46,482 bases of DNA, taken from NCBI GenBank assembly GCA_022823465.1, contig JAJEHX010000004.1:1-46482 (forward strand), read 5' to 3'. This stretch comes from Candidatus Latescibacterota bacterium. Lineage in GTDB: Bacteria; JAAXHH01. The first letter of the stretch is position 1. The number at the start of each line of letters is the position of its first letter. Both the position numbers and the translations under genes were made by a program. The notes beneath the pieces were generated by a model. The model was not told the origin of the DNA and ran no database searches. It saw only the letters and a list, made by a program, of their open reading frames with translations. Positions 8,451 through 45,827 of the stretch are shown piece by piece.

Positions 8451-8548
8451 GGGAGTGTATGGGTTGCTGGTGCGCCTCACGGACTTCAAATCCGATGGCG
8501 GGCCCTAAACAGGTCCGTGGTGGGTTCGATTCCCACACGCTCCCCCCA
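8451..8548 (+). tRNA. selC: tRNA-Sec (anticodon TCA)
   Basis: A selenocysteine tRNA. The acceptor stem has 8 bp (gggagtgt 8451-8458 with acgctccc 8537-8544, one T-G wobble). The T arm is 5 bp (gtggg 8520-8524 with cccac 8532-8536, loop ttcgatt) and joins the acceptor directly, giving the bacterial 8+5 geometry. The anticodon arm is cgga-cttcaaa-tccg (8480-8494), with anticodon TCA at 8486-8488. The long variable arm is a 6-bp stem, cgggcc/ggtccg, with loop ctaaaca. CCA appears to be encoded at 8546-8548, leaving C at the discriminator position, where bacterial tRNA-Sec usually has G. D-arm pairing is less regular. Proximity to selB confirms the identity. Confidence 0.96.
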
Positions 8549-8940: not shown

Positions 8941-9412
8941 GATACACCTCCCATAAAGGCATGTGGATTGACTCTGCCTGATTAGACATCGCAGGAGGTT
9001 ATTGGGTTGTATGCTCAATGGCCGTCCGGTAGTGTATCAAATTGAAATCCCAAACCCTCACCGTCCGGCGTTCGATCTCTACTGTTGACTCCTGCTAGTA
9101 GCCGGCCGAATACCCTGGAACCGACAACTGACCAGTCCAAAACGGGTTAGATTTCTCGCAATTTCGAATCCAACTTTTACGGTTTATTCACATAACATAA
9201 CGTGTAAAAACTGTAAAACGACCGCGTTGTACCGGTTTACAGCCTCAAGTGTCCTCCCTCTGAAATAATCCTCCCTCCTAAAACTGTTTTCCATCTGAAC
9301 AGTATCTTCTTTGAACTGTTTTCCTTTTCTTGGGCGGGTTACAAGCTATCATTGAGAGTAACTTCTAAAAACAATGGCGTCATAAAACCTCTAAGCAGCG
9401 GGAGGGGTACAA
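8941..9412. other. Non-coding AT-richer stretch with ACTGTT repeats
   Basis: No convincing gene is seen in these 472 bases. The stretch is clearly lower in GC than its surroundings. It contains an inverted repeat, actgtt (9283-9288) and aacagt (9298-9303), with another gaactgtt at 9313-9320. The longer phrase aactgttttcc occurs twice. These sit about 95-130 bp upstream of the lipoprotein start at 9413 and could be regulator sites; this is inference only. Confidence 0.35.
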
Positions 9413-10465
9413 GTGCGGGTAACGATCTCAATCCTATCTGTAATCATCTTAGCTTGCTCTGGTGATTCAAACCCCATAAACAACTCAGAGCCAGTTATTT
9501 TGGAACGCTCTGTACAAACCATACATCCCGTACTGGGTGTGCGTATCGCCGCGGAAGTGAACGACGGTTCATACGACAGAGACGACTACAAATACTCTAG
9601 TTCAATCGAGGCTGATATTGTGAATCAACAGGGCGGTTTATTCTCTCCCTACTCGCTTATTTGCTTCAATTCTGCTACTGATACGGATATAGAACATATC
9701 GTAGCCGCAGCCGAGGCACATGCAAGTGGCATGCATGCCAGAACCGAAGAGGAACGGGGAGAATTTGGCGAGGACCTGGACAACCTCACCCTTGCGGCCC
9801 CAGGCTTAAACCGAAATCAGAAGTCCGACAATGACCCGGCTGAATGGATGCCCGACAACAACAGATGCTGGTACGTAGGCAAATGGGTGGAGATTAAAAA
9901 GAAGTTCAATCTGACTATGGACCAGGCCGAGGCGGACTCCATAGCCGCAGTCTACCAGGAATGCGATTCCTTCGATATGATCCGGCCTGTCTGCGCTGTA
10001 GGTCTGCCCGAGTCTGAATACTACGATTTCAGATGGAGCAGGTGGGGTGATAGCAAGGAAGAGGTACAATCGACAGAGCAGGATACGCTAGCATATAGCC
10101 AGGTGGATAGCACCAGCGTAACTGGATCGGTCACCGGAGTATTGACCTTCAATGATGAGGTTTCCGATACTGTAACGGTAATGTACTCATTTACGGACAA
10201 CGCTCTGTCGTCAGGATCGTATGTGTTTGCGACGGATGTACCAGTCAGTCGGATGGATACCATTCAGACCGTACTTAGTGAACGATACGGCACTGGCGAG
10301 GAAGAAGAAGGGTATACCCTGTGGAGGCGTAATGAACGGACATGGGTGACCCTGTACCCAGCTACAGAAGAAGAGCCAATGAGCATTGTCTATGTGGAGC
10401 AGCTAACTGCCGGTAACAATGACTATAGCGATCTACCATTGCGCGTGGTGATTCCTACTGAATAA
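9413..10465 (+). CDS. Predicted lipoprotein of unknown function
   Basis: 350 residues, GTG start at 9413 with GGGAGGGG upstream at good spacing. The N-terminus MRVTISILSVIILAC ends in a lipobox, predicting lipid attachment at Cys15. The mature part is acidic, with many Ser/Thr/Asp/Glu and a few cysteines (CFNS, NNRCWYVG, YQECDS, PVCAVG) that could form disulfides. Residues about 60-170 include repeated acidic-aromatic stretches; the C-terminal half has alternating short beta-like segments (GSVTGVLTFNDEVSDTVTVMYSF). I do not recognise the family. Codon use and base composition are more AT-rich than the flanking metabolic genes, so acquisition by transfer is possible. It stands alone, with 139 bp before the next gene. 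Confidence 0.7.
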   Translation: MRVTISILSVIILACSGDSNPINNSEPVILERSVQTIHPVLGVRIAAEVNDGSYDRDDYKYSSSIEADIVNQQGGLFSPYSLICFNSATDTDIEHIVAAAEAHASGMHARTEEERGEFGEDLDNLTLAAPGLNRNQKSDNDPAEWMPDNNRCWYVGKWVEIKKKFNLTMDQAEADSIAAVYQECDSFDMIRPVCAVGLPESEYYDFRWSRWGDSKEEVQSTEQDTLAYSQVDSTSVTGSVTGVLTFNDEVSDTVTVMYSFTDNALSSGSYVFATDVPVSRMDTIQTVLSERYGTGEEEEGYTLWRRNERTWVTLYPATEEEPMSIVYVEQLTAGNNDYSDLPLRVVIPTE

Positions 10466-33255: not shown

Positions 33256-34188
33256 ATGATCGTCATGGCTACGAACAACGGCGACGTGGGCATCCGCCAG
33301 GCGGTGGCCGCGCTCAAGGAAGGCAAGACCGCGGTGGACGCCATCGAAATCGGCATCCGGGAGGTCGAGGTGCACCGCCCCGACCGCAGCGTCGGCCTCC
33401 ACGGCTATCCCAACATCCTCGGCTATCCCCAGCTGGACGCGCTCATCATGGACGGCCGGACCCGCGACGTGGGCGCGGTGGGCGCGGTGACGGGCTACGA
33501 CCATCCGATCTCGATCGCCCGCTGCGTCATGGAGAAGCTGATCCACGTCTTTCTCGTGGGTGACGGCGCGGAGCGGTTCGCCAGCGAAATGGGTTTCGAG
33601 AAGAGCACCTACGTGGATCCCGAGATGCCCGAGATCTACGCGAAGCACGTGCGCGAACAACTGGGGATCGACGACCCGGAGGAACTCCAGCATACCAACG
33701 AGCTCTGGAAGCTGAGCCACCTGGCCGTCGATCCGCAGAAGGCCGGCGGCACGACCAACTTCATCGCGCAGGACGGCAAGGGCGACATCTGCGTGGGCGT
33801 CAGCACGAGCGGCTGGGGATGGAAGTACCCGGGCCGCCTGGGGGATTCGCCCGTCATCAGCGCGGGGGGGTTCGCCGACAACCGGTACGGCGCCGCGGCC
33901 TGCACGGGTACCGGCGAGTTGGCGATTCGGACCGGCGCGGCCCGGAACGTGGTGACCTACATGAAGATGGGCATGTCCCTCGAAGAGGCCACGGCGGAGG
34001 GGCTGCGGGACATGAACGAGCTCGACTCCCAGCGCGTCGGCGGCGTGCAGATCATCTCCCTGGACGCCAGCGGCGCCCACATGGCGGGCACCACCTCCGA
34101 GCGGAAAGGCAGCCACGTCTTCATGACGCCGGACATGGACGAACCCGAATTCGTCGAAGGCATCTCCGTGCCGTACGAGGGCAGTTGA
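33256..34188 (+). CDS. N4-(beta-N-acetylglucosaminyl)-L-asparaginase / isoaspartyl peptidase-family Ntn hydrolase
   Basis: 310 residues of the asparaginase-2 (Ntn-hydrolase) family, which self-cleaves before a Thr to form alpha and beta chains and hydrolyses asparagine-type amides. The N-terminal half has GIRQAVAALKEGKTAVDAIEIGIREVE and MDGRTRDVGAVGAV. The probable cleavage site is GGTTNF, with Thr166 as the N-terminal nucleophile of the beta chain. Family positions follow it: GVSTSGWGWKYPGRLGDSPVISAGGFADN and AACTGTGE. The start at 33256 is supported by AAGGA. No signal peptide is seen, so it is cytoplasmic if the start is correct. It lies upstream of a PhyH gene. Substrate uncertain. Confidence 0.88.
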   Translation: MIVMATNNGDVGIRQAVAALKEGKTAVDAIEIGIREVEVHRPDRSVGLHGYPNILGYPQLDALIMDGRTRDVGAVGAVTGYDHPISIARCVMEKLIHVFLVGDGAERFASEMGFEKSTYVDPEMPEIYAKHVREQLGIDDPEELQHTNELWKLSHLAVDPQKAGGTTNFIAQDGKGDICVGVSTSGWGWKYPGRLGDSPVISAGGFADNRYGAAACTGTGELAIRTGAARNVVTYMKMGMSLEEATAEGLRDMNELDSQRVGGVQIISLDASGAHMAGTTSERKGSHVFMTPDMDEPEFVEGISVPYEGS

Positions 34189-34298
34189 GAGCAGTTAGCG
34201 GAGTCGCCAGGCATCGAGCGTCGCTGAGCATCGCCGGAGCGAGTGAGTTGATCGTACCTTTCCAGGTCATCGGACGCGGTTGAACGGAGCATCGTAAG

Positions 34299-35030
34299 AT
34301 GAAACTCGAACACGCCATCGCCCATCTCGACGAACACGGTTACGTGGTGCTCAAAGAGGCGTTGACCCCGGAGCAGGCCAATGCGCTGCGCGATCGTTCG
34401 GCCGAGCTGGCTGCAGAAGAAAAGGCCGGCGGTGAACACGTGTATTTCGACGGGCAGGCGCAACGGGTATGGAACCTGGTCAACAAGGGCCGTATCTACG
34501 AGGAGATGATCCAGCTGCCGCAGGTGCTCGCGCTCCACGAACACCTGCTGGGCGACGACTGCATATTGAGCAGCTTTACCGTCAACCTCATCGGCCCGGG
34601 CGCGCCGGCCGGCGGTCTGCACGTCGACTTTCCCCTGGGGCGTTACCCGCAGCCGCCTCCACCCTTCGCCTTCTGCTCCAACACGATCTTCGTGCTCGAC
34701 GACTTCACGTCCGAAAACGGGGCCACGCGGCTCGTGCCGGGCAGCTATAGGCGCGGAACCCCGCCCGATCCTGAGAAAGCGTACGACGACGTCATCCAGC
34801 TCGACGCCCGCAAAGGCGATATCGTCATCATCCACGGCGCGACCTGGCACAGCAGCGGCGCCAACCGCACCCGGCAGGAGCGGATGATCCTGCTGGGTTT
34901 TTTCTGCCGGTCGTTCATGAAACCGCAGCAGGACCAGTTCAGGCTCGCGAGCCCAGAGGTCGTGGAGCGGGCGACCCCGACCATGAAGCGATTGCTGGGA
35001 TTCGAGTCGCAGTCGGGCCTGCGAGCATAA
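34299..35030 (+). CDS. Phytanoyl-CoA dioxygenase (PhyH)-family protein, second copy
   Basis: 243 residues. The iron site is H108-V-D110 in GGLHVDFPLG, and the distal ligand is H184 in IIHGATWHSSGANRT, with an Arg for 2-oxoglutarate shortly after (RTRQERMILLGFF). The phrase LDDFTSENGATRLVPGSYRRG matches the family. It is shorter than, and only distantly related to, the copy at 31355. GGAG precedes the ATG. Its stop codon lies inside the first unit of an 18-bp tandem array. It is probably in one transcription unit with the CBM9-like gene downstream. Substrate unknown. Confidence 0.9.
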   Translation: MKLEHAIAHLDEHGYVVLKEALTPEQANALRDRSAELAAEEKAGGEHVYFDGQAQRVWNLVNKGRIYEEMIQLPQVLALHEHLLGDDCILSSFTVNLIGPGAPAGGLHVDFPLGRYPQPPPPFAFCSNTIFVLDDFTSENGATRLVPGSYRRGTPPDPEKAYDDVIQLDARKGDIVIIHGATWHSSGANRTRQERMILLGFFCRSFMKPQQDQFRLASPEVVERATPTMKRLLGFESQSGLRA

Positions 35031-35096
35031 GCCAGCATGCGGGCATAAGCTAGGATGCGCGCATAAGCTAGGATGCGCGCATAAGCCAGTCGACCC
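35025..35096. repeat. Tandem array, four 18-bp units, starting in a stop codon
   Basis: Units at 35025, 35043, 35061 and 35079 with consensus gcataagctaggatgcgc. Units 2 and 3 are identical; 1 and 4 vary. The taa at 35028-35030 is the PhyH stop codon, and each unit repeats an in-frame taa. It has the same unit length and copy number as the array at 16748 but an unrelated sequence. Confidence 0.92.
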
Positions 35097-35130
35097 GAGC
35101 ATACGGGCTTGAGCGAAAGAAAGGATCGAC

Positions 35131-35889
35131 ATGTCTGACTCGCCATCCCCTGACATCGTCCCCAAGACCTACACCTGTTACCGCGCCTGCGGTCCCATCG
35201 CCATCGACGGGAAGCTGAGCGACCCGTCCTGGATCCGGGCGCCCCGCACCGACCTATTCGTCGATATCGAAGGCGATCTCAAGCCCATCCCCCGATTCGG
35301 TACGCGCGCCATGATGCTGTGGGACGACGAGTACTTCTACGTGGCCGCGGACATGGAAGAGCCGGACGTGTGGGGCACGCTGACCAAGCGGGATTCGATC
35401 ATCTGCCACGACAACGACTTCGAGGTATTCGTCGATCCCGACGGGGACACCAACCACTACATGGAGTTCGAGATCAACCCCCTGAACGCCGTCTGGGACC
35501 TGTACCTGCCCAAGCCCTACAGCAAGGGCGGACAGGCGGACCACGACTGGGACTTCGTGGGCGTGCGGCACGCAGTCCACATCGACGGGACCGTCAACTG
35601 TTCGCACGACGTGGACCGGGGCTGGTCCACCGAAATCGCCTTCCCCTGGACCAGCATGGCCGAATACGCCGGCGTCGACTGCCCGCCGAAGCCCGGGGAC
35701 TCCTGGCGGGTCAACTTCTCGCGGGTGGAATGGGAATTCGACCGCTATAAAGACGGCTACCTGCGCAAAGAAGGCGTCCCCTGCGACAACTGGGTCTGGT
35801 CGCCGCAGGGCGTGATCAACATGCACGTCCCCGAGATGTGGGGGCACGTCGTGTTTTCGGATACGGTGGTGGGTACGAAGGAGATGTGA
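35131..35889 (+). CDS. Carbohydrate-binding family 9-like protein
   Basis: 252 residues resembling the CBM9-like domain found in xylanases and in many stand-alone environmental proteins. Signatures: PIAIDGKLSDPSWIRAP at the start, TRAMMLWDDEYFYVAADMEEPDVWG, HDNDFEVFVDPDGDTNHYMEFEINPLNAVWDL and GWSTEIAFPWTSM. No signal peptide is seen from the chosen ATG, which has AAAGGA upstream, so it may be cytoplasmic or the start may be further on. A glycan-binding role is family-based inference. It follows the PhyH gene across the 18-bp array. Confidence 0.87.
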   Translation: MSDSPSPDIVPKTYTCYRACGPIAIDGKLSDPSWIRAPRTDLFVDIEGDLKPIPRFGTRAMMLWDDEYFYVAADMEEPDVWGTLTKRDSIICHDNDFEVFVDPDGDTNHYMEFEINPLNAVWDLYLPKPYSKGGQADHDWDFVGVRHAVHIDGTVNCSHDVDRGWSTEIAFPWTSMAEYAGVDCPPKPGDSWRVNFSRVEWEFDRYKDGYLRKEGVPCDNWVWSPQGVINMHVPEMWGHVVFSDTVVGTKEM

Positions 35890-35898
35890 GGGGTTGGG

Positions 35899-36477
35899 TC
35901 AGGTTAGTTTCAGAATAGTCACGATTACCCCCGCGACCGATACAAGCAACCCGACAGTCCACCGAAACTGTGTATTCGTGTGGGCTATCAAATCCGTTTT
36001 CTGCTGCACCATATCCGTCCTCAATTGCTCCAGGTTCATTCTAAATTGCTCCATCTCCGTGTTCAATTTCGCCATGCCCGTCGCGGTGTCGCTTTTAAAC
36101 TCCTCCATGTCGTCGCGGGTGTCGCCGTTCATCTTTTCCATGTCGTCGCGCATGGTGATTCTCATTTTTTCCATGTCATCACGCATGGCGATTCTCAGCT
36201 TTTCCATATCGTCACGTGTGGCGATTCTCAGCTTTTCCATATCGTCACGTGTGGCGATTTTTAGCCTGTCTATATCTTCACGCGTGGCGATTTTTAGCCT
36301 GTCTATATCTTCACGCGTGGCGACATGCTCCAGTTTCTCCTCGATCCTGGCCAACCGAACTTTGATGTTATCGGCACTGAAATACAGATCATCTTCGATC
36401 CGCCGGATGGACTCGGCAGTTTTGTGCTGATCCATATCTGTACCGTCAGTTTTGCGTTTGCTTTGGGTATCATTCAT
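35899..36477 (-). CDS. Hendecad coiled-coil protein with C-terminal membrane segment (long paralogue)
   Basis: 192 residues. It has a conserved N-terminal part with IRRIEDDLYFSADNIKVRLARIEEKLEHVATREDI, then a run of 11-residue repeats (ATREDIDRLKI twice, ATRDDMEKLRI twice, AMRDDMEKMRI, TMRDDMEKMNG, DTRDDMEEFKS), and a C-terminal membrane segment FRWTVGLLVSVAGVIVTILKL. An 11-residue period is a hendecad, which gives a nearly straight coiled coil. It should be anchored by its C-terminus with a long cytoplasmic or periplasmic rod. The layout recalls the DUF1640/CCDC90-like coiled-coil membrane proteins. The ribosome binding site is poor. Function unknown; paralogues at 36513, 36975 and 40957. 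Confidence 0.85.
   Translation of the reverse strand: MNDTQSKRKTDGTDMDQHKTAESIRRIEDDLYFSADNIKVRLARIEEKLEHVATREDIDRLKIATREDIDRLKIATRDDMEKLRIATRDDMEKLRIAMRDDMEKMRITMRDDMEKMNGDTRDDMEEFKSDTATGMAKLNTEMEQFRMNLEQLRTDMVQQKTDLIAHTNTQFRWTVGLLVSVAGVIVTILKLT
36076..36306 (-). repeat. 33-bp tandem repeats encoding hendecads
   Basis: About seven head-to-tail 33-bp units, with boundaries near 36109, 36142, 36175, 36208, 36241 and 36274. Neighbouring units are very alike at the DNA level, for example those at 36241 and 36274. Each encodes one 11-residue coiled-coil repeat of the 35899 gene, so the length of the rod changes by whole units. Confidence 0.9.
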
Positions 36478-36512
36478 TTGTTCATTCGTTCACTGCGATT
36501 ACGCGGGTTTAC

Positions 36513-36884
36513 TCAGATTAGTTTCAAAGCAGTCACGATTACCCCCGCGACTGATACAAACAACCCGACGGTCCATCGAAACTGCGTATTTGTGTGGGCT
36601 TTCAGTTCCGTTATCTGCCGCTCCACGTCCGTTTTGAGCTTTTCCATGTCGCCGTGCATAGAGGCTTTGAACTTTTCCATGTCTTCGCGCGTGGCGATTT
36701 TCAACCTGTCCATATCTTCGCGCGTGGCGACATGCTCCAGTTTTCCCTCGATCCTGGCCAGACGAACCTTGATGTTGTCCGAACTGTAATACAGATCATC
36801 TTCGATCCGCTTGATTGACGCCTCGATTTCCCGTGAACTCATCCCGGCATCCCCCGCTGGGAGTTTTCTTTCTTGATCATTCAT
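36513..36884 (-). CDS. Hendecad coiled-coil protein with C-terminal membrane segment (middle paralogue)
   Basis: 123 residues, closely similar to the 35899 gene: IKRIEDDLYYSSDNIKVRLARIEGKLEHVATREDMDRLKIATREDM, then AHTNTQFRWTVGLFVSVAGVIVTALKL. It keeps the same N-terminal motif and membrane segment but has only two or three clear hendecads, against about seven in the neighbour. AGGA lies 8 bases before the ATG. It is in the same orientation, 35 bp upstream of the long paralogue, so the two may be co-transcribed. Function unknown. Confidence 0.83.
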   Translation of the reverse strand: MNDQERKLPAGDAGMSSREIEASIKRIEDDLYYSSDNIKVRLARIEGKLEHVATREDMDRLKIATREDMEKFKASMHGDMEKLKTDVERQITELKAHTNTQFRWTVGLFVSVAGVIVTALKLI

Positions 36885-36974
36885 TATGTCTATCCTGTGA
36901 AGAGAAGCTGCGGACCGACAATCGTACCGGCATGAATACGGTAACGGATATCAGATGTGGTCATGATGACCGAT

Positions 36975-37244
36975 CTATGGCAGCAGCCATTTAAACACCG
37001 TAACGACTAACCCTACGAGCGTCAGGCTGCTCCCCAAAAACCACCTTGTCATACTGATTTTCAAATTCGCGATGTCCTCTTTGGTGGCCGTGTTTCTGAG
37101 CCTTTCATTCATTCTGGCTATTACCACCCTTAAACTATCCGGCCCGAAGTATAAATCCGCCTGAACTCGTCTGACGAAACTGTGTACCTCCGCCTGAGTC
37201 GTTTCCGGTTCTCCGGGCACCCTTTTGCTTTCAGATTCACTCAT
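36975..37244 (-). CDS. Short coiled-coil protein with C-terminal membrane segment (third paralogue)
   Basis: 89 residues from ATG 37244 (MSESESKRVPGEPET), the start shared with the frameshifted copy at 41222; an ATG at 37256 is also in frame. Conserved part: VRRVQADLYFGPDSLRVVIARMNERLRNTATKEDIANLK, essentially one hendecad, then the membrane segment WFLGSSLTLVGLVVTVFKWLL. The motif DLYFxxDxxxVxxARxNExL links it to the two larger neighbours. A degenerate copy of a hairpin-containing repeat also found before the 41222 copy lies at 37311-37341. Function unknown. Confidence 0.8.
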   Translation of the reverse strand: MSESESKRVPGEPETTQAEVHSFVRRVQADLYFGPDSLRVVIARMNERLRNTATKEDIANLKISMTRWFLGSSLTLVGLVVTVFKWLLP

Positions 37245-37506
37245 TTTGAAGCCCATCCTCTAAGAAATCCGACACGAACCCCGCACGTTTTAATTCCCTT
37301 TCAAGAACTACAGTAGTCGCGATGCGATTTTTCTCGTGCTAATTCTTCATCGCAAGTGATTGGGGATGGCGGAATATGGGCTGTGATCTGTTCCATCCAG
37401 TGTAAATTGCAAAATTCATCTTGCGAAAATTATAATCATATTTTAACTTATATAAAATTGATTTGAGTTTTGATAAATAACACTTTTGTTTTTGGATGAT
37501 ATTGAA

Positions 37507-37863
37507 ATGAATAGTGAACATCTGATGAACGAAAACACCGATCCAATACAGCCTCCGCGGTTGCCTGCCCATTGCCCGGGCTGTGCCGCGGCCCTGCAGG
37601 TCGTTCGCCTCAACTGTACAGAGTGCGATACGGCCGTGATCGGTGGTTTTTCCCTGCCGCCGCTGGCCCGCCTTGTCCCGGAGGATCAGGACTTTGTGCT
37701 CTGCTTTCTCCAGACCGGCGGCAATCTCAAGGACATGGCCAAACAGTATGGCGTCTCCTACCCCACGTTGCGGAACCGTCTCGACGCCCTCGTCGAGGAG
37801 CTTGTTTCGTCGGCGGAGTCGGAAAGCACGGGGGACGATCTCGGCAAGGCAAGCAATTTGTGA
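37507..37863 (+). CDS. DUF2089-family zinc-ribbon/helix-turn-helix protein
   Basis: About 118 residues. Two zinc-knuckle pairs, C23-x2-C26 (HCPGC) and C37-x2-C40 (LNCTEC), are followed by SLPPLARLVPEDQDFVLCFLQTGGNLKDMAKQYGVSYPTLRNRLDALVEEL. This is the DUF2089 layout: a zinc ribbon plus a helix-turn-helix resembling sigma-factor region 4. Start at ATG 37507; a TTG at 37486 is in frame. The family is often encoded beside membrane proteins and is probably a transcription regulator. Here it is followed by a YIP1-like membrane protein 25 bp downstream and is likely to control that operon. The upstream 100 bases are very AT-rich. Confidence 0.85.
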   Translation: MNSEHLMNENTDPIQPPRLPAHCPGCAAALQVVRLNCTECDTAVIGGFSLPPLARLVPEDQDFVLCFLQTGGNLKDMAKQYGVSYPTLRNRLDALVEELVSSAESESTGDDLGKASNL

Positions 37864-37888
37864 GGTCCATTTCATAGAAGGCGTACCC

Positions 37889-38884
37889 ATGGACGCTCCC
37901 CACACTCACGCGACTTCTGCCTGGCGCACGTGGCTATTTAATCCATTTCACTTCCTGGCCGGCGGCCAGGCCCTGGCCTGGGGCGTGGCATGCATCGTGT
38001 TGACTGCCATGCTCGGTGGTATATACGATTATCGCACTACGGGCGTGATTTCCTTCCAGCTCACGGTCCCGGCTCCGCTCTGGCACGCCGTGGCGCAAGG
38101 CCTCATGGCCTGGGCTATCCTCAGCGTTCTGCTCTACATCGGCGGCCGTCTGATCAGCCAAAGCCGCCCGCGCTCCATCGACGTCTTCGGCACCCAGGCC
38201 CTCGCCCGGGCGCCCGCCCTGCTCATGGCCCTGCTCGTGGTATCGCCGCCTTTACGCGGCCTCATCCCGTCCCTGATCGCCCAGGGCACCTCGCCTCCCT
38301 CCCTCGCACAGCTTGCCCTCCTTGTTTCGTTCGGACTGGCGGCGGTTCTGCTGCTGGTCTGGATGGTCCTCCTGATGTACCGCGCATTTGCCGTTTCATG
38401 CAATGTCGCCGGCGGCCGGGCGATTGCCGTATTCATCGCCGCCATTGCCCTGGGCGAGGTCGCCGCCGGCGAAGCGGGACGGTTGTTGCCGGGAACCGTT
38501 ATCCCGCAGACCGTCGTCAGCATACCCGTAGAGTCCGAGCAACACTTTCTGGCCGCACAACTGGCTACCAGGATACTTCAGGGCCATGAGCAGGGCCGCT
38601 TTGAAGTCCTGGGGCCGGAGGAGGCCACCGAGGGCTTTCGCAATGGTTTCACCGCGGAGGTCCAGCGTCGGAATCACCAGGCCATCCGGCAGCGCTACGG
38701 CGCCTTCGAGGGCCTGGACTACGTCGAGACCCTGTCCTTAGAGGCTCAACCGCACCTGCTGGTCCACCGCTTCAGAGGCCGGTACGGAGCCGCGTCCCGG
38801 GCGCCCGAAGTGCGCGTCGTCCTCGACCGGGAAGGCAGGCTGGCGGGTTTGTGGATCAAGCCCTGGCAGGAGCAGATGCAGTGA
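37889..38884 (+). CDS. YIP1-like multi-pass membrane protein with C-terminal DUF3887-like domain
   Basis: 331 residues. It starts at ATG 37889 with GAAGG upstream; the frame is open earlier but unlike the family. Five hydrophobic segments lie in the first ~210 residues: LAWGVACIVLTAMLGGIY, LMAWAILSVLLYIGGRLI, ALLMALLVVSPPLRGLI, LALLVSFGLAAVLLLVWMVLLMY and AIAVFIAAIALGEVAAG. The arrangement resembles YIP1-type proteins. The last ~115 residues form a soluble alpha/beta domain (HFLAAQLATRILQGHEQGRFEVL...DREGRLAGLWIKPW) like DUF3887, with the typical FxxxT region. Its stop overlaps the next start by 4 bp (GTGA). Function unknown. Confidence 0.75.
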   Translation: MDAPHTHATSAWRTWLFNPFHFLAGGQALAWGVACIVLTAMLGGIYDYRTTGVISFQLTVPAPLWHAVAQGLMAWAILSVLLYIGGRLISQSRPRSIDVFGTQALARAPALLMALLVVSPPLRGLIPSLIAQGTSPPSLAQLALLVSFGLAAVLLLVWMVLLMYRAFAVSCNVAGGRAIAVFIAAIALGEVAAGEAGRLLPGTVIPQTVVSIPVESEQHFLAAQLATRILQGHEQGRFEVLGPEEATEGFRNGFTAEVQRRNHQAIRQRYGAFEGLDYVETLSLEAQPHLLVHRFRGRYGAASRAPEVRVVLDREGRLAGLWIKPWQEQMQ

Positions 38885-39333
38885 GCACCTATCGCCACAC
38901 CCAGTTCGGCACGGTCAACGTCGTCTTCATCATCGCCATCCTGCCACTTGTCTTTTTGCCCGCGTGGCTGGCCGGGGCAGCCCCCCTCGCGTGGCTGATC
39001 CTGGTTTTCCTGCTTGGGGTCCTGGTGGTGTTCTACAACCTGACCGTCGAGATCGATGCCGAGTACCTCCGCATTGCCTTTGGCATCGGCCTGATCCGAA
39101 AGCGCTTCGCCCTCGATCAGATCGACTCCTGCCAGCCGGTCAGAAACTCCTGGCTCTATGGCTGGGGCATCCGCCTGACGCCCCATGGCTGGCTCTACAA
39201 TGTATCGGGTCTGGATGCGGTGGAACTGAAGATGAAGAGCGGCAAGACCTGCCGCGTCGGCACGGACGAGCCCGCGGTCCTGGCCGCCGCGCTGCGAGAG
39301 GCGTTGGACGGTGCAAGGTCAGCACAGGAGTGA
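38881..39333 (+). CDS. Small membrane protein with PH-like domain
   Basis: 150 residues, GTG start overlapping the previous stop. Two closely spaced hydrophobic segments (VVFIIAILPLVFLPAWLAG and LAWLILVFLLGVLVVFYN) are followed by a soluble region: VEIDAEYLRIAFGIGLIRKRFALDQIDSCQPV, then WGIRLTPHGWLYNVSGLDAVELKMKSGKTCRVGTDEPAVLAAAL. This is the pattern of bacterial PH-like domains (the phrases TPHGWLYNVSG and TDEP are common in them). It is the third gene of the DUF2089/YIP1/PH-like operon. The function of such operons is not established. Confidence 0.82.
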   Translation: MSTYRHTQFGTVNVVFIIAILPLVFLPAWLAGAAPLAWLILVFLLGVLVVFYNLTVEIDAEYLRIAFGIGLIRKRFALDQIDSCQPVRNSWLYGWGIRLTPHGWLYNVSGLDAVELKMKSGKTCRVGTDEPAVLAAALREALDGARSAQE

Positions 39334-39442
39334 ATTCCTGCGTATCAGGGTTGCCGTAAACCTTTATGATCGTCTCAATGCATTTCGGCGGGAGTGTACT
39401 TTTTTGAATGTATTACGAGTAGTTTGCCTGGCAATTGTTCAG

Positions 39443-39745
39443 TTACAGTTTATTGGCTTGATTGTAGGCTTCATCATGTTTACCAACGACAAGCGGCCTA
39501 CCTATGGTTTCTTGATCTTTCTCGATCAGTTCGTATACGAAACGGTATTTCCTGTTCAATCTCGCTGAAAACAGATTAGGGCCTATCTTTTCCAAACGGC
39601 GTCCTGGTGTAATAGCACCGTCTCTGAATTCGTTCAACAATCTCTTGTAGTTTTTCTGTAGATGTTTGGGGATTTTTCGGTACTGGCTCAGGAAGGAATT
39701 GTCAGGTTCTTCAAACCTGGAAGGAATCTCGAAAGGAAAATCCAC
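39443..39745 (-). CDS. RelE/ParE-superfamily toxin-like protein
   Basis: 100 residues. The C-terminal half reads SARLNRKYRFVYELI...PLVVGKHDEAYNQ, the pattern of RelE/ParE/HigB-like toxins (a basic R-N-x-x-x-R-F strand followed by a VGxHDxxY end). These toxins cleave mRNA at ribosomes or inhibit gyrase. GTG start at 39745, one base after the TAG of the partner gene, so translation is coupled. The first ~25 residues (MDFPFEIPSRFEEPDNSFLS) are longer than in minimal members. It is probably the toxin of a two-gene module. Confidence 0.75.
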   Translation of the reverse strand: MDFPFEIPSRFEEPDNSFLSQYRKIPKHLQKNYKRLLNEFRDGAITPGRRLEKIGPNLFSARLNRKYRFVYELIEKDQETIGRPLVVGKHDEAYNQANKL

Positions 39746-39746
39746 A

Positions 39747-40229
39747 CTAATCTCTTCGATTTACAATTGCCTCGAATTCATCACCACCGGAAAAGGTTTC
39801 GTTCGAACGTGGAACGATCCTTCCGTTATGAATCAAAACATCCCATCGCAACTCTTGAAATTTCCCTGCATAGGTTTTCAAAGCTGACTTCAATGTATTA
39901 GCGATTTCCGGATACTGAAATGAATCTGAAGGAATCGACTTGTAACTTTCGTAGAATTCCATACAAAACTCTTCAAGGTCGTTTATAACCCTTACCATAG
40001 GATCGTCTACGTCAACGTGGCCATGTTCTTTGGCATGGTTAACATAATCACCTATCATTTCATAACCGATTTCAAGTCTCTCTCTAAAGGATTTGACCGT
40101 GAGATCAAGTTTCCTCAAAACCAGGTCTTCGTCCTGGATATGATCATATATCTCTGACTCGAAATCAGGGAACTTGTCGATCTTACTTAAAATATGGCTG
40201 GCTTTTTCAATTTCCTGTGTTGCCGGCAT
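39747..40229 (-). CDS. Putative antitoxin partner (unrecognised family)
   Basis: 160 residues, ATG at 40229 with GGGG 8 bases upstream; a GTG at 40241 is an alternative. Acidic and mostly helical (EIEKASHILSKIDKFPDFESEIYDHIQDEDLV, VINDLEEFCMEFYESYKSI), ending SGGDEFEAIVNRRD. No DNA-binding motif is obvious. The call rests on position: it is the first gene of a two-gene unit with a RelE-like toxin, stop and start one base apart. It is larger than common antitoxins. Confidence 0.55.
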   Translation of the reverse strand: MPATQEIEKASHILSKIDKFPDFESEIYDHIQDEDLVLRKLDLTVKSFRERLEIGYEMIGDYVNHAKEHGHVDVDDPMVRVINDLEEFCMEFYESYKSIPSDSFQYPEIANTLKSALKTYAGKFQELRWDVLIHNGRIVPRSNETFSGGDEFEAIVNRRD

Positions 40230-40340
40230 AATCAACCCCACAGTCTTTTTCTTTCACTAGCAAAGGGTTATTGTATTCAGCAGACTATTCCAAATGGTGT
40301 GGGCCACATGAGTATCAACTGTAACAAGTAAACTATAATG

Positions 40341-40355
40341 TTGACTTTTCGTCAA
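40341..40355. promoter_or_regulatory. Inverted repeat upstream of the toxin-antitoxin-like pair
   Basis: ttgac-ttttc-gtcaa, a perfect 5-bp inverted repeat about 110 bp before the antitoxin start, in AT-rich DNA without a gene (40230-40425). It could be an operator of the pair; inference from position only. Confidence 0.35.
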
Positions 40356-40425
40356 TACCATTGTGGCACACACAGATTTCAAGCTGGAGCACTATTGGCC
40401 CTTTGCGGATTTCTACCAAGCGTTT

Positions 40426-40656
40426 TCAAAGAGACGTGTCATTCTGTGTAGCATCTGATTTGTATTTGTAATACCCTCTTACCTCGTCAATCTTGGTTTC
40501 TACTCTGTCTAACGAGGCATTGATATTTCTCAGCTCATCTCGGAATTCAGTTCTTAACTCACCTAATGTAACATGTAAGTAAGTTAACAATGCTATCAGA
40601 GCAATGGCCCCGGTGAAGGCAGCCCCGTTACGTTGGTACCAAGTATCCTTAGTCAT
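40426..40656 (-). CDS. Small membrane protein with coiled-coil tail
   Basis: 76 residues from ATG 40656 (MTKDTWYQRNGAAFTG), with AGGGG 7 bases upstream. One membrane segment (AAFTGAIALIALLTYLHVTLG) is followed by a heptad-like helix (LRTEFRDELRNINASLDRVETKIDEVRGYYKYK). Topology is opposite to that of the hendecad family nearby: the membrane segment is N-terminal. Small membrane/coiled-coil proteins of this type often occur near restriction-modification genes. Function unknown. Confidence 0.65.
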   Translation of the reverse strand: MTKDTWYQRNGAAFTGAIALIALLTYLHVTLGELRTEFRDELRNINASLDRVETKIDEVRGYYKYKSDATQNDTSL

Positions 40657-40707
40657 ATCTGACCCCTGACTATCACTACAAGACACAAGCGTCGCAGTCC
40701 ATTACTG

Positions 40708-40890
40708 TCATGCGGAAGGATGAGGGTTTTTCCAGCCGTACCAGACCTTGTCCCGGTATCCATTCTTAAGCCTGATATCGATTTCAATACCAAGAATCTC
40801 GATCTCTTCATCGGTCAAAAGATCCAGAATCTTGCGTTTCAATATCTCGGCCTTTCGTGGATCGATAAGCCGACCTTTCTCATCTACCAT
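40708..40890 (-). CDS. Small hypothetical protein
   Basis: 60 residues (MVDEKGRLIDPRKAEILKRK...), with a strong AGGAAGGAG ribosome binding site 8-9 bases before the ATG. Charged and helical in the middle (ILKRKILDLLTDEEIEILGIEID), ending KVWYGWKNPHPSA. No known domain is recognised. The good initiation site and its position between other small reverse-strand genes support it as real. Confidence 0.6.
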   Translation of the reverse strand: MVDEKGRLIDPRKAEILKRKILDLLTDEEIEILGIEIDIRLKNGYRDKVWYGWKNPHPSA

Positions 40891-40956
40891 AAGAAGACTC
40901 CTTCCTGAACATGCGGACCATGATGCTATCGGAATCGTAATACAAATTTTGAGACT

Positions 40957-41222
40957 TCATAGTGCCCATTTGAAAACCGCAACGATTATTCCTGTCAGCG
41001 TGACGATACTCCCGACATACCACTTGATCAGACTGAACTTCAGGTTTGCAATGTCTTCACGGGTGGCCGTGTTTCCGAGTCTTCATCCATCCGTCTCAAC
41101 ACTATCGTTACGTTTTCTGGTCCGAAGTAAAGATCACCCCGTACTCGCAGAACCAGTCCGCGGATCTCTGCCCGGGTCATTTCCGGTTCTCCGGGTATCC
41201 TGTTGCGTTCAGATTCACTCAT
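40957..41222 (-). pseudogene. Frameshifted paralogue of the short coiled-coil/membrane protein
   Basis: It starts MSESERNRIPGEPEMTRAEIRG, closely matching the protein at 36975-37244, with AAGGA upstream. After VLRRMDE the frame slips into an early stop (60 residues). In another frame the homology resumes at once, RLGNTATREDIANLK, and continues through the membrane segment WYVGSIVTLTGIIVAVFKWAL to a TGA at 40957. Compared with the paralogue, one base is missing near 41086. It may be a pseudogene, a sequencing error or, less likely, a site of frameshifting. Confidence 0.82.
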
Positions 41223-41285
41223 TTAGTCTTTCCTTAAGATAGGCTGCGCGAAATCTGCGGGTTAATGTTGCCCCGTTAAGGAGTA

Positions 41286-41386
41286 CAGTCGTCGAGAAAC
41301 ACGTTTTCTCGTATTTAATCTGAAAGTTGCAGGTTTTGATAGTCTCTTTAGAATTCAGTAGTCAAGAAGCGCGTTTTCTCGTATTT
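41286..41386. repeat. Two 31-bp direct repeats with internal hairpin
   Basis: Copies at 41286-41316 and 41356-41386 match at 27 of 31 positions. The first contains the hairpin cgagaaa-cacgt-tttctcg. A more degenerate third copy is at 37311-37341 (23 of 31). All lie upstream of a gene starting MSESE on the reverse strand. The first two also lie in the 255-base gap before hsdR. Confidence 0.8.
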
Positions 41387-41477
41387 TTCTCCGAATTAAT
41401 TAGAAAATGCTAGCTTAAGGATGTTCGAGAGCGACCCGCTTACATTGGGTAGGCCAAGAGCATAGCGGATAGGCAGA

Positions 41478-44240
41478 ATGCAGAACACCAACCAAACGCC
41501 CGAACAGGCGGCACGTGACATCATCGACGCGAATTTGGAACGCGCTGGCTGGAAGGTGCAATCAAAGAACAAGATCGACTTCAGCGCTGGCCTCGGGATT
41601 GCCGTTCGTGAGTATCCGACGGACGTTGGTCCCGCCGATTACGTTCTTTTTGTAGACAAGCAACCTACTGGTGTGGTTGAAGCTAAATCTGCAATTCAGG
41701 GTCACAATATCACAACGGTCGAGGAGCAGTCCTCGGGGTATGCCAACGCCAACCTCAAGTGGGTAGACAATAAAGAGCCCCTCCCATTTGTCTACGAATC
41801 TACCGGTGAAATCACAAGGTTCACCGACAGTCGCGACCCTAAACCCCGTTCACGAGAGGTGTTCAACTTCCACCACCCAGAGACTATGGCGGAGTGGCTT
41901 AGCCAGGCAGATCCACTACGCGAGCGCCTCCAAGGGCTGCCGGAATTGGATCCCAAAGGGCTTAGGGCATGCCAGATCAACGCCATCGAAAACCTTGAAG
42001 CATCCTTCAAAGAGGACCGCCCGCGCGCCCTCATTCAGATGGCTACCGGCTCTGGTAAAACCTATACCGCTATTACCTCGATCTATCGGCTGCTCAAGCA
42101 CGCTGACGCCAAACGAATCCTCTTCCTCGTAGACACCAAGAATCTGGGCGAACAGGCGGAGCAGGAATTCATGGCCTACGTGCCCAGTGACGACAACCGC
42201 AAGTTCACCGAGCTTTACAACGTCCGGCGCCTCAACTCGTCCCATGTCCCAAACGATAGTCAAGTCTGTATCAGCACCATCCAGCGGATGTATTCGATTC
42301 TAAGGGGTGAGGAGTTAGACGAAGCTGTCGAGCAGATCAACCCGGCGGAAAAGGTACAACTCAAGCCCCAGCCGGTTGTCTACAACGAGAAGATTCCCCC
42401 TGAGTTATTCGACTTCATCATCATCGACGAATGTCACCGCTCGATTTACAACCTGTGGCGACAAGTCCTCGAGTATTTTGATGCCTATCTCATTGGCCTG
42501 ACCGCGACTCCGGATAACCGAACTTATGGGTTCTTCAGGAAGAACGTAGTCAGTGAGTACGATCATGAGCAAGCCGTCGCCGACGGTGTAAATGTCGGCA
42601 ACGAAATCTACGTCATCGATACGGAAAAGACGAAACACGGCGGTCAACTCAAGGCGGACCAGCAAGTTGAAAAACGTGAACGCCTCACACGGCGCAAGCG
42701 CTGGGAAATTCAAGACGAGGACGTCACCTATACCGCCAAGGAACTCGACCGGTCTGTCGTCAACTTTGATCAGATACGCACCGTCATCCGTACTTTTCGC
42801 GATAAATGGCCTGAGATATTCCCTGGCCGCGGCGAAGTCCCGAAGACGCTCGTTTTTGCAAAGACCGACAGCCATGCCGACGATATTATCCAGACCGTGC
42901 GCGAGGAATTCGGCGAAGGAAACGAGTTCTGCAAGAAGGTCACCTACAAGACTGAAGAAGACCCGAAGTCCGTCCTTGCTCAGTTCCGTAACGACTACCA
43001 CCCGCGCATCGCGGTAACCGTGGATATGATCGCCACGGGTACGGATGTAAAACCGCTCGAATGTCTGCTCTTCATGCGGGACGTGAGAAGCCGAAACTAT
43101 TTCGAGCAGATGAAAGGCCGCGGCACCCGCACACTCGACCATGACGATCTCAAAAAGGTCTCGCCCTCCGCCGTCAGTGGGAAGACCCACTACGTGATCG
43201 TCGACGCCGTCGGGGTCACGAAATCACTTAAGACCTCCAGCCAGCCACTCGTCACTAGGCCCTTTGTGCCACTCAGGGATCTCGCCATGGGCGTGATGAT
43301 GGGCGCATACGATGCAGATACGGTGAGTTCGCTTGCCGGGCGCCTCGCCCGGCTTAATCAACAACTCGACCCCGCCGAGAAGGAGCGGATAGAGGAACAA
43401 GCCAGTGGCATTGAACTCACTGAAATCATTAGCAATCTACTGTCCGCCATCGATCCTGATCGCATTGAGGAGAAGGCACGTGTAATCGAACCCGTGGACG
43501 ACGGTGCCGAACCGCCACCTGAGGTATGCGAGAAGGCCCAGAAGCAGTTGGTCCATGACGCAGCCGACGTGTTTAACGGCGAACTGATCGAGTTGATCGA
43601 CTCGATACGTCGTGACAAGGAGCAAACGATCGACCATGACGGGCTAGACACGGTGCTCCGTGCCGAATGGGAAGGTGACGCACACGAGAATGCCGAAGCC
43701 ATAGTGCAGGACTTCCAACAATATCTCAAAGCGAATCGCGATGAGATCGAAGCCTTGACTATCTTCTACACCCAGCCGTACCGTCGTCGAGAGTTGACCT
43801 ACGCCATGATACGCGAAGTGTTCGACAAACTGAAGAAGGACCAGCCTCGACTGATCCCATACCGGGTCTGGCAAGCCTACGCCCTGCTCGACGAATACGA
43901 GGGCAGCCAACCGATCAGCGAACTGACCGCGCTGGTAGCGTTGATTCGCCGTGCCTGCGGCATTGATGAGAAGCTCGCGCCTTATTCTGAAACCGTGCGC
44001 CGGAACTTTCGAGATTGGATCATGCAGCATCACAGCGGCAGCGGAGAGAAGTTCAACGAGGCGCAGGTGGACTGGCTGCACATGATCCGTGACCACATCA
44101 TAACCTCGTTTCATATGGACCGAGACGATTTGAACCTCGCTCCGTTCGATGGCAAGGGTGGCATGGGGCAGATGTACAAGCTGTTCGGCGACCGGATGGA
44201 TGATGTGATTGATGAGTTGAATGAGGTATTGGTGGCTTAA
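41478..44240 (+). CDS. hsdR: Type I restriction endonuclease subunit R (HsdR, EcoEI-like)
   Basis: 920 residues. HsdR provides the ATP-driven DNA translocation and cleavage of a type I system. The N-terminal nuclease domain has D54 and E68-A-K70 in GPADYVLFVDKQPTGVVEAK, the PD-(D/E)xK site. The helicase follows: Walker A ATGSGKT at 189-195, motif II DECH at 317-320, then GLTATPD and ATGTDVKPLECLLFMRDV, and the QMKGRGTR motif VI. The C-terminal ~200 residues resemble the EcoEI HsdR C-terminal domain. Length and motifs are complete, so it is probably active. hsdS begins immediately after the stop (TAA then GTG). Confidence 0.96.
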   Translation: MQNTNQTPEQAARDIIDANLERAGWKVQSKNKIDFSAGLGIAVREYPTDVGPADYVLFVDKQPTGVVEAKSAIQGHNITTVEEQSSGYANANLKWVDNKEPLPFVYESTGEITRFTDSRDPKPRSREVFNFHHPETMAEWLSQADPLRERLQGLPELDPKGLRACQINAIENLEASFKEDRPRALIQMATGSGKTYTAITSIYRLLKHADAKRILFLVDTKNLGEQAEQEFMAYVPSDDNRKFTELYNVRRLNSSHVPNDSQVCISTIQRMYSILRGEELDEAVEQINPAEKVQLKPQPVVYNEKIPPELFDFIIIDECHRSIYNLWRQVLEYFDAYLIGLTATPDNRTYGFFRKNVVSEYDHEQAVADGVNVGNEIYVIDTEKTKHGGQLKADQQVEKRERLTRRKRWEIQDEDVTYTAKELDRSVVNFDQIRTVIRTFRDKWPEIFPGRGEVPKTLVFAKTDSHADDIIQTVREEFGEGNEFCKKVTYKTEEDPKSVLAQFRNDYHPRIAVTVDMIATGTDVKPLECLLFMRDVRSRNYFEQMKGRGTRTLDHDDLKKVSPSAVSGKTHYVIVDAVGVTKSLKTSSQPLVTRPFVPLRDLAMGVMMGAYDADTVSSLAGRLARLNQQLDPAEKERIEEQASGIELTEIISNLLSAIDPDRIEEKARVIEPVDDGAEPPPEVCEKAQKQLVHDAADVFNGELIELIDSIRRDKEQTIDHDGLDTVLRAEWEGDAHENAEAIVQDFQQYLKANRDEIEALTIFYTQPYRRRELTYAMIREVFDKLKKDQPRLIPYRVWQAYALLDEYEGSQPISELTALVALIRRACGIDEKLAPYSETVRRNFRDWIMQHHSGSGEKFNEAQVDWLHMIRDHIITSFHMDRDDLNLAPFDGKGGMGQMYKLFGDRMDDVIDELNEVLVA

Positions 44241-45827
44241 GTGGCACTAGGGCTTCGACCATTAGAAATCGTGACGAAGGAGACTTATCCCCTTCTTACC
44301 AAGGCGGGGCACTGGGAACGTGTGACCTTATCCGATGTCGCGAACGTACAAAACGGCTTCGCCTTTAAGTCTTCTTATTTTGATCCTGATAGGGGCGTTC
44401 CACTCATTCGCATCCGCGACATTTCCAAAGAAAAGACCGAGCACCGCTATTGGGGTGAATTCGATGACCAGTATATAGTAAAGCCAAGCGAGATTCTCAT
44501 CGGGATGGACGGTGATTTCGCTGCTTCCCGATGGACCGGTCAGAAAGCGCTTCTAAACCAACGTGTATGTAAGGTCACGTTAACCAGTGATCTGTTTGAT
44601 GAAGGCTTCCTGTACCTTTGCTTACAGCCTTTTCTGAATGCGATTAACGCTGAGACTTCTTCGGTTACGGTAAAACATCTTTCCTCAAAGACTGTCGAAG
44701 AAATTCCGTTACCACTGCCTCCTTTGATGGAACAGCGCCGTATCGTCACTAAGATTGAGGAACTGTTTTCCGAAATAGACAAGGGTATCGAAAGCCTGAA
44801 GACAGCGCGGGCGAAACTCAGTGTCTATCGCCAAGCCGTGCTCAAGCACGCCTTCGAAGGTAAGCTCACCGCCCAGTGGCGCGAAGAGAACAAAGACAAA
44901 CTGGAGACGCCCGAACAATTACTCGTTCGCATCAAACAGGAACGGGAGGCACGCTACGAGCAGCAACTCAAGGAGTGGAAGGCTGCAGTCGAGACTTGGG
45001 ACGCAGAAGGGAGGTCCGGTAAGAAGCCATCAAAACCCAAGCGATTAGTCCACTCCCCTTCGCTAGTCGCTGAGGACGTGTTAGCTCTCCCCAAACTTTC
45101 AGACGAATGGTCTTGGTTCCCACTCTCCGCAATCGCGAGTAACATCCAGATAGGTCCGTTCGGATCACTTCTACACAGGGCGGACTACATAGTAGGGGGG
45201 ACACCGCTCGTTAATCCTAGCCATATTCGCTTTCAAAGAATCGAACCGGATCTAACTCTGACGGTAAGTGCAGATAAACTTCATCAATTGGGCAAATACG
45301 TTATGCATGAGAACGATATTGTCATTGGACGTAGAGGCGAAATGGGGAGGTGTGCCGTTGTAACCGCTGCGGAAGCAGGATGGTTGTGTGGCACCGGCAG
45401 TCTCTTTGTACGGCTTCTTTCTTCAATGAATGCACATTTCTATTCGTGGGTTCTTGGTTCCCAACGCGTAAAGGACTTCTTGGCAGCATCCAGCATCGGC
45501 ACGACTATGCAGAACCTCAATGAAAGCATACTGCATAATGTTCCGGTTCCTGTCTGTTCGCGTCAAGAGCAGGATGAAGTGTTCAGGGAGGTTGAAAGGC
45601 AGTATTCAATGCTGGATCACATAGAAGCAGCAATTGACTCTGAGATCACTAAACCAGACGCCCTCCGTCAGTCGATCCTAAAGAAAGCCTTCAGCGGCCA
45701 ACTTGTGGAACAGGATCCACACGACGAGCCCGCCTCGATTCTTCTGGACCGAATTAGAGCCGAAAGAGAGCTGGCAGAAAAGAAAAACTACTCCAAGAAA
45801 GCAACGAAGCGAAAGGCGACTGCATGA
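44241..45827 (+). CDS. hsdS: Type I restriction-modification specificity subunit S (HsdS)
   Basis: 528 residues with two target recognition domains. TRD1 is about 20-165 (WERVTLSDVANVQNGFAFKSSYF...LPLPPLMEQRRIVTKIEELF). Then comes a conserved helical spacer (RAKLSVYRQAVLKHAFEGKLTAQWREEN). TRD2 is about 285-445 (WSWFPLSAIASNIQIGPFGSLL...VPVPVCSRQEQDEVF), followed by the second conserved helix (DALRQSILKKAFSGQLV). Each TRD reads half of a bipartite site; the sequence recognised cannot be predicted. GTG start at 44241 directly after the hsdR stop. The stop overlaps hsdM by 4 bp (ATGA). The lysine-rich end (KKNYSKKATKRKATA) is an unusual but small tail. Confidence 0.95.
   Translation: MALGLRPLEIVTKETYPLLTKAGHWERVTLSDVANVQNGFAFKSSYFDPDRGVPLIRIRDISKEKTEHRYWGEFDDQYIVKPSEILIGMDGDFAASRWTGQKALLNQRVCKVTLTSDLFDEGFLYLCLQPFLNAINAETSSVTVKHLSSKTVEEIPLPLPPLMEQRRIVTKIEELFSEIDKGIESLKTARAKLSVYRQAVLKHAFEGKLTAQWREENKDKLETPEQLLVRIKQEREARYEQQLKEWKAAVETWDAEGRSGKKPSKPKRLVHSPSLVAEDVLALPKLSDEWSWFPLSAIASNIQIGPFGSLLHRADYIVGGTPLVNPSHIRFQRIEPDLTLTVSADKLHQLGKYVMHENDIVIGRRGEMGRCAVVTAAEAGWLCGTGSLFVRLLSSMNAHFYSWVLGSQRVKDFLAASSIGTTMQNLNESILHNVPVPVCSRQEQDEVFREVERQYSMLDHIEAAIDSEITKPDALRQSILKKAFSGQLVEQDPHDEPASILLDRIRAERELAEKKNYSKKATKRKATA

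Follow-up and report, generated by a model that had tools for sequence, protein, structure and literature searches.

The CCDC90/DUF1640 family (PF07798) includes MCUR1, CCDC90B and yeast Put6/Put7. PDB 6H9L, which we take to be a prokaryotic member of this family, reportedly stems from a 2019 study by Adlakha et al. of MCUR1/CCDC90B and their prokaryotic relatives. Variation of the repeat number within a paralogous family that carries a C-terminal hydrophobic segment is known from the plasmid-borne Bdr proteins of Borrelia. As to rods with short repeats, Hartmann et al. 2016 (PMC4786415) described a trimeric fibre with repeating MATKDDIAN nonads, and a beta-layer consensus, [aliphatic]-A-T-K-[polar]-[DE], that is found where the DUF1640 stalk begins.

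In this study we analysed a stretch of 46,482 nucleotides from a Candidatus Latescibacterota bacterium (the window) and describe a gene cluster whose proteins follow a common plan, have defined repeat periods, change their length in quantised steps, exchange heads and anchors and are under purifying selection. The cluster and its surroundings contain the following features:

35899..36477, minus strand: long member, 192 aa, with a charged and probably disordered N-terminal tail, two-helix head, neck (HVAT), coiled-coil rod and C-terminal membrane helix
36129..36323, no strand assigned: 33-bp tandem repeat array encoding hendecads, 5.9 copies, 89% matches, score 208
36513..36884, minus strand: middle member, 123 aa, with the plan of the long member and a rod of 51 aa
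36975..37244, minus strand: short member, 89 aa from the likely start, with a rod of 15 aa, which is one unit
37245..37485, no strand assigned: divergent intergenic region between the cluster and the DUF2089 gene, which can be aligned across seven species
37486..37863, plus strand: DUF2089 gene (zinc ribbon and HTH), divergent to the cluster, candidate regulator
37868..38884, plus strand: gene of a Yip1-like membrane protein, weak Pfam match
40957..41222, minus strand: copy with a frameshift, of the type of the short member (MSES), at a second site
41478-45827: HsdR (EcoEI-type C-terminus) and HsdS of a type I restriction-modification (R-M) system

Plan of the cluster proteins and comparison with solved rods

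A sequence-only reading of this DNA had noted three intact genes and one frameshifted copy with a common motif. This proved correct: the open reading frames are found on the minus strand, the head motif is conserved, and all four follow the plan of a charged and probably disordered N-terminal tail, a DLY head, a rod of ATREDI-type 11-residue units and a C-terminal membrane helix. D30, L31 and Y32 of the head are conserved across alignments, with the D and Y of D-L-Y invariant, and D36 and R44 are additionally invariant in alignment A3. Our searches gave no match of known function for the head. The middle member is ~50-65% identical to its relatives in the corresponding cluster of the sister genomes. 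For the short member a start at 37244 is likelier than one at 37256 (ORF 36975-37256, 93 aa), because AGAGGA lies just upstream and the orthologues begin with MSES. In the frameshifted copy the head is in one reading frame and ATREDIANLKF with the membrane segment in another; at the second site of L047 an intact family member is found at 9258-9554. Over 34000-42000 no RNA families were found, and elsewhere in the window (8451-8548) ARAGORN predicted a selenocysteine tRNA gene (anticodon TCA).

Counted from the head to the RW preceding the membrane segment, the three rods measure 120, 51 and 15 residues, in agreement with the earlier claim that they differ in hendecad number. The long rod comprises seven ATREDI-type hendecads and further coiled coil. 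The spacing of its motif is exactly 11 (six consecutive 11s), as is that in the middle member, the DNA repeats every 33 bp, and the rod hydropathy period of 3.67 residues per turn is the hendecad value. Spectral peaks at ~3.2-3.3 in the nonad rods were rejected as a real period, because they fall at the limit of the range that was scanned. By hydropathy, a C-terminal membrane segment with 0-8 residues beyond it is present in 35 of 35 family members (essentially no tail follows it in the long member), and none of the 35 has an N-terminal hydrophobic segment. AlphaFold, run on monomers with 13 alignment rows, gave for the 192-aa protein helices at 17-30, 35-50 and 55-191, a rod pLDDT of ~90 and a break at HVAT (51-54). 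At this break lies a beta-layer-type neck motif, ahead of the helix 55-191 and the C-terminal hydrophobic segment; in each member the neck is the position of the first motif. The model of the 123-aa protein was poor (pLDDT 62, pTM 0.22), and with it Foldseek found no match in the PDB.

The 11-mer rod matches PDB 6H9L (6.5e-10), the chain of which carries ATKEDIEALRK repeats, and a nonad orthologue from a sister species (9-mers ATRDDLKAF) matches PDB 5APZ (1.5e-5). The rod units fit the beta-layer consensus of PMC4786415. Cluster proteins resemble CCDC90/DUF1640 in the succession of a neck motif, a long stalk of coiled coil and a membrane anchor at the C-terminus and, via 6H9L, in the 11-residue ATREDI/ATKEDI units, whereas their head is unrelated by sequence. 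With 27.2 bits the 192-aa protein does not reach the PF07798 cut-off of 33.5, and the 123-aa protein scores lower; the match spans profile positions 35-156, the rod, and leaves the N-terminal head of the profile (positions 1 to ~35) unmatched. A separate DUF1640/CCDC90-like protein of this genome (L006 1420-1827, contig C26) is a more typical DUF1640 member. It has a head of its own and ATKEDL units of 9 residues, and it matches the profile from position 1 onwards at 29.6 bits, which is under the Pfam cut-off of 33.5; our head profile A1 matches this protein in the repeats only. The alpha/beta coiled coil Tcar0761 (PDB 5APZ) is similar to the sister orthologues, with their ATRDDLKAF nonads close to MATKDDIAN. 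However, the window members have 11-residue units and the head and anchor are the family's own. Nine-residue A-T-[KR]-x-[DE] spacing is absent from the window members (spacing 11) and is found in most sister members, in runs of up to 12. The rod is of a type for which structures have already been solved, and the head was found in this genus only.

The head profile is present in 10 of the 12 genomes of this genus and in 0 of four genomes from elsewhere in the phylum. With a narrower head alignment (A2) a scan of genome contigs gave six loci, and those checked belong to the genus. Named records with the family are Candidatus Latescibacterota MAGs, some of them filed as Gemmatimonadetes; isolate names and the literature on sponge Latescibacterota suggest that the genus is probably sponge-derived. 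No relatives were found in viral contigs, five Bordetella phages gave weak matches over the coiled coil only, and a tblastn search of a plasmid collection with the long member gave no match. Besides the variable cluster there are two lone-gene loci in the genus, both of which retain their neighbours in most genomes compared. The first encodes proteins of the TATKEDIAN type with nearly constant length (92-97 aa; the copy of this genome, on contig C6, has 111 aa from the first start codon), and the second a protein of 80-84 aa without a rod. Lone homologues of constant length, which the sequence-only reading had named as speaking against it, do occur at these two genus-wide loci, with single members of nearly constant length.

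Two other small proteins were noted. In L050 (9146-9385), 24 bases downstream of the constant-length member, lies the gene of a 79-aa coiled-coil protein whose membrane segment is N-terminal, with counterparts in L048, L049, L051 and L052; it is possible that this protein, of opposite topology, is a partner of the constant-length member. The window gene at 40426-40686 has a similar plan. A conserved 83-aa tail-anchored protein at the second site (L041 13249-13500, FFKDENVKSRLFGLEK) that looked by eye like a distant family member was rejected, as the head profile gave no support.

Quantised length changes and exchange of heads and anchors

We found that the rods of orthologues at one locus differ in steps of complete repeats and do not all have the same unit length, and that heads and anchors are exchanged, which is new. 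Their rod lengths span 40 to 76, 29 to 56 and 15 to 103 residues, numbers that short-read assembly of repeats may distort; against an assembly artefact are the divergence of the units (72-89% matches within arrays) and two assemblies with only 7 and 9 contigs. The differences in rod length among orthologues were 0/18/18/27/36 (9s), 0/9 (9s), 0/44/88 (11s) and 0/7/18/25/27 (9s and 7s). Orthologues of the short member, for example, have rods of 59 aa in L040 and 103 aa in L042, compared to 15 in the window.

Exchange of modules is seen in two chimeras. L042_1392 resembles L040_9277 in its head (85%, anchor 58%) and L040_10034 in its anchor (82%, head 61%). L046_9717 shares its head with L041_10007 (93%, anchor 52%), and its anchor is 81-85% identical to those of headless genes. 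Such headless paralogues are found in three species (L039 10156-10425, L041 9675-9971, L043 555-923) and are without the DLY segment, as if it had been deleted between two RIE motifs. In all cross-species pairs tested but one, dN/dS was 0.06-0.5, which argues for selection at the protein level and hence for real proteins. The exception was a headless pair (0.73), in which selection is perhaps relaxed.

The earlier suggestion of a multigene family in which head and anchor are fixed and the rod varies is supported by its recurrence as tandem copies in the congeners. The ruler that had been proposed along with it did not survive the comparison. Such a ruler, in which mixed long and short members would hold a bound partner at defined distances from the membrane, would explain why most congeners have two or three members side by side that are not equally long. 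However, the rods of true orthologues vary widely in length across species, and L046 carries one long gene and a remnant. This drift in length makes a fixed or precise ruler unlikely, and we regard the whole explanation as rather improbable.

A fixed locus and its neighbours

In 9 of the 10 congeners with a readable site (window included) the cluster sits at one fixed position, with a CBM9-like gene on one side and the divergent DUF2089 gene on the other. The gene order (Gatase, asparaginase, PhyH, CBM9, cluster, DUF2089, Yip1-like, PH-like) is shared by all congeners whose contig covers the locus, except for G008, which is without the cluster, DUF2089 and Yip1 and in which CBM9 adjoins PH. 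CBM9 is 92-97% identical among congeners, and CBM9, PhyH, asparaginase and DUF2089 are constant wherever the cluster is present. The number of copies is three in six genomes (window included), two in two, and one with a remnant in one (L046).

This stable locus, with chromosomal metabolic genes as conserved flanks, speaks against holin-like or XhlA-like membrane-active proteins. Small size and a coiled coil followed by a C-terminal membrane helix are features shared with XhlA/phrog_689, and there are weak matches of several members to phrog_689 (holin; 4.2e-5, 3.7e-5, 7.8e-6). However, this match covers the generic coiled coil and membrane helix, a GDLYHG member that was tested had no PHROG match, and XhlA (PF10779) was matched at 17.8 bits (E 0.0038), below its cut-off of 34.7. 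The cluster proteins also differ in having their own N-terminal head and no phage context. We therefore see only a slim chance that they act as holins.

A fast-evolving family of antigen-like proteins or decoys, in which length variation itself is selected, seems very unlikely as well. Tandem paralogues, varying repeat number, recombination among copies and a C-terminal hydrophobic segment do recall Borrelia Bdr, but Bdr is plasmid-borne and of other sequence. Moreover, the low dN/dS, the conserved head and the stable locus are at odds with such a family, as are the cytoplasmic topology to be expected and the lack of an N-terminal signal segment.

The cluster had also been described as lying beside a type I R-M operon, in a defence-type neighbourhood. 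R-M genes are indeed present, but they begin at 41478. The ~4.2 kb that separate them from the cluster hold DUF2089, Yip1-like, membrane PH-like and toxin-like genes. A survey of neighbours in related genomes, which had been proposed as a check, gave multi-copy co-occurrence in the congeners and no recurrent association with defence genes: HsdR is near the cluster in 2 of 9 assembled flanks (window and L040), while the metabolic genes and DUF2089 are constant. A variable spot before xthA (39443-41300 in the window, with equivalents in L039, L040, L041, L044, L045 and L047) holds toxin-like genes in the window, VapBC-type genes in several others and R-M in two; its edge is marked by a conserved 60-aa gene and an 83-aa tail-anchored gene. 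As R-M is found in so few flanks and in a separate variable spot, we find no support for a defence neighbourhood, and the presence of defence genes nearby is a coincidence. That the proteins themselves form a defence system or part of the R-M locus is hardly credible: HsdR and HsdS lie ~4-9 kb away, but in a spot beyond three conserved genes, and PADLOC gave nothing beyond weak coiled-coil matches for the three cluster proteins.

A probable tail-anchored membrane scaffold

In our view the cluster probably encodes tail-anchored coiled-coil proteins with a CCDC90/DUF1640-like plan of head, neck, stalk and anchor, which would form an oligomeric membrane scaffold or tether with unit-wise changes of the rod. 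The C-terminal helix would insert into the inner membrane and leave head and stalk in the cytoplasm, since the N-terminus has no hydrophobic segment and hardly any residues follow the C-terminal one. By analogy with the solved relatives, the proteins probably assemble as parallel trimers, the first V-A-T-R-E-D motif would form a beta-layer neck, and the rod would be a hendecad coiled coil in the window or a nonad alpha/beta coiled coil in sister species. Rod length changes as complete units of 27 or 33 bp are gained or lost. These repeats, together with the tandem layout of the genes, would also allow recombination of heads and anchors, with slippage and unequal crossing-over as plausible drivers. 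The most likely role would be that of a membrane scaffold or tether showing the conserved DLY head at loosely specified distances.

The cluster is possibly controlled by the divergent DUF2089 regulator, the sole PF09862 match in the genome, as the divergence of the genes and their single joint loss in G008 suggest. DUF2089 has been reported in membrane-stress operons with Toastrack proteins (PMC11237479). This link leads us to propose a role of the scaffold in stress or homeostasis, the stress part with low confidence; the regulator might perhaps control the scaffold in a membrane-stress setting. It is conceivable, if unlikely, that these are genus-specific recombining tail-anchored oligomers with heads, rods and anchors as interchangeable modules, in which rods convert in evolution between hendecad alpha-helical and nonad alpha/beta backbones at one locus and mixed assemblies stand under a DUF2089 membrane-stress regulator.

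In conclusion, our results correct the assignment of this cluster to a defence island. They also add a genus-specific head to the tail-anchored stalk proteins of bacteria, a widespread class that is poorly understood. The cluster provides a natural series, at one locus, of related rods from one to ~thirteen units with a period of 9 or 11 residues. This series opens the way to the question of how coiled coils gain and lose length and change between all-helical and alpha/beta backbones while head and anchor are under selection.
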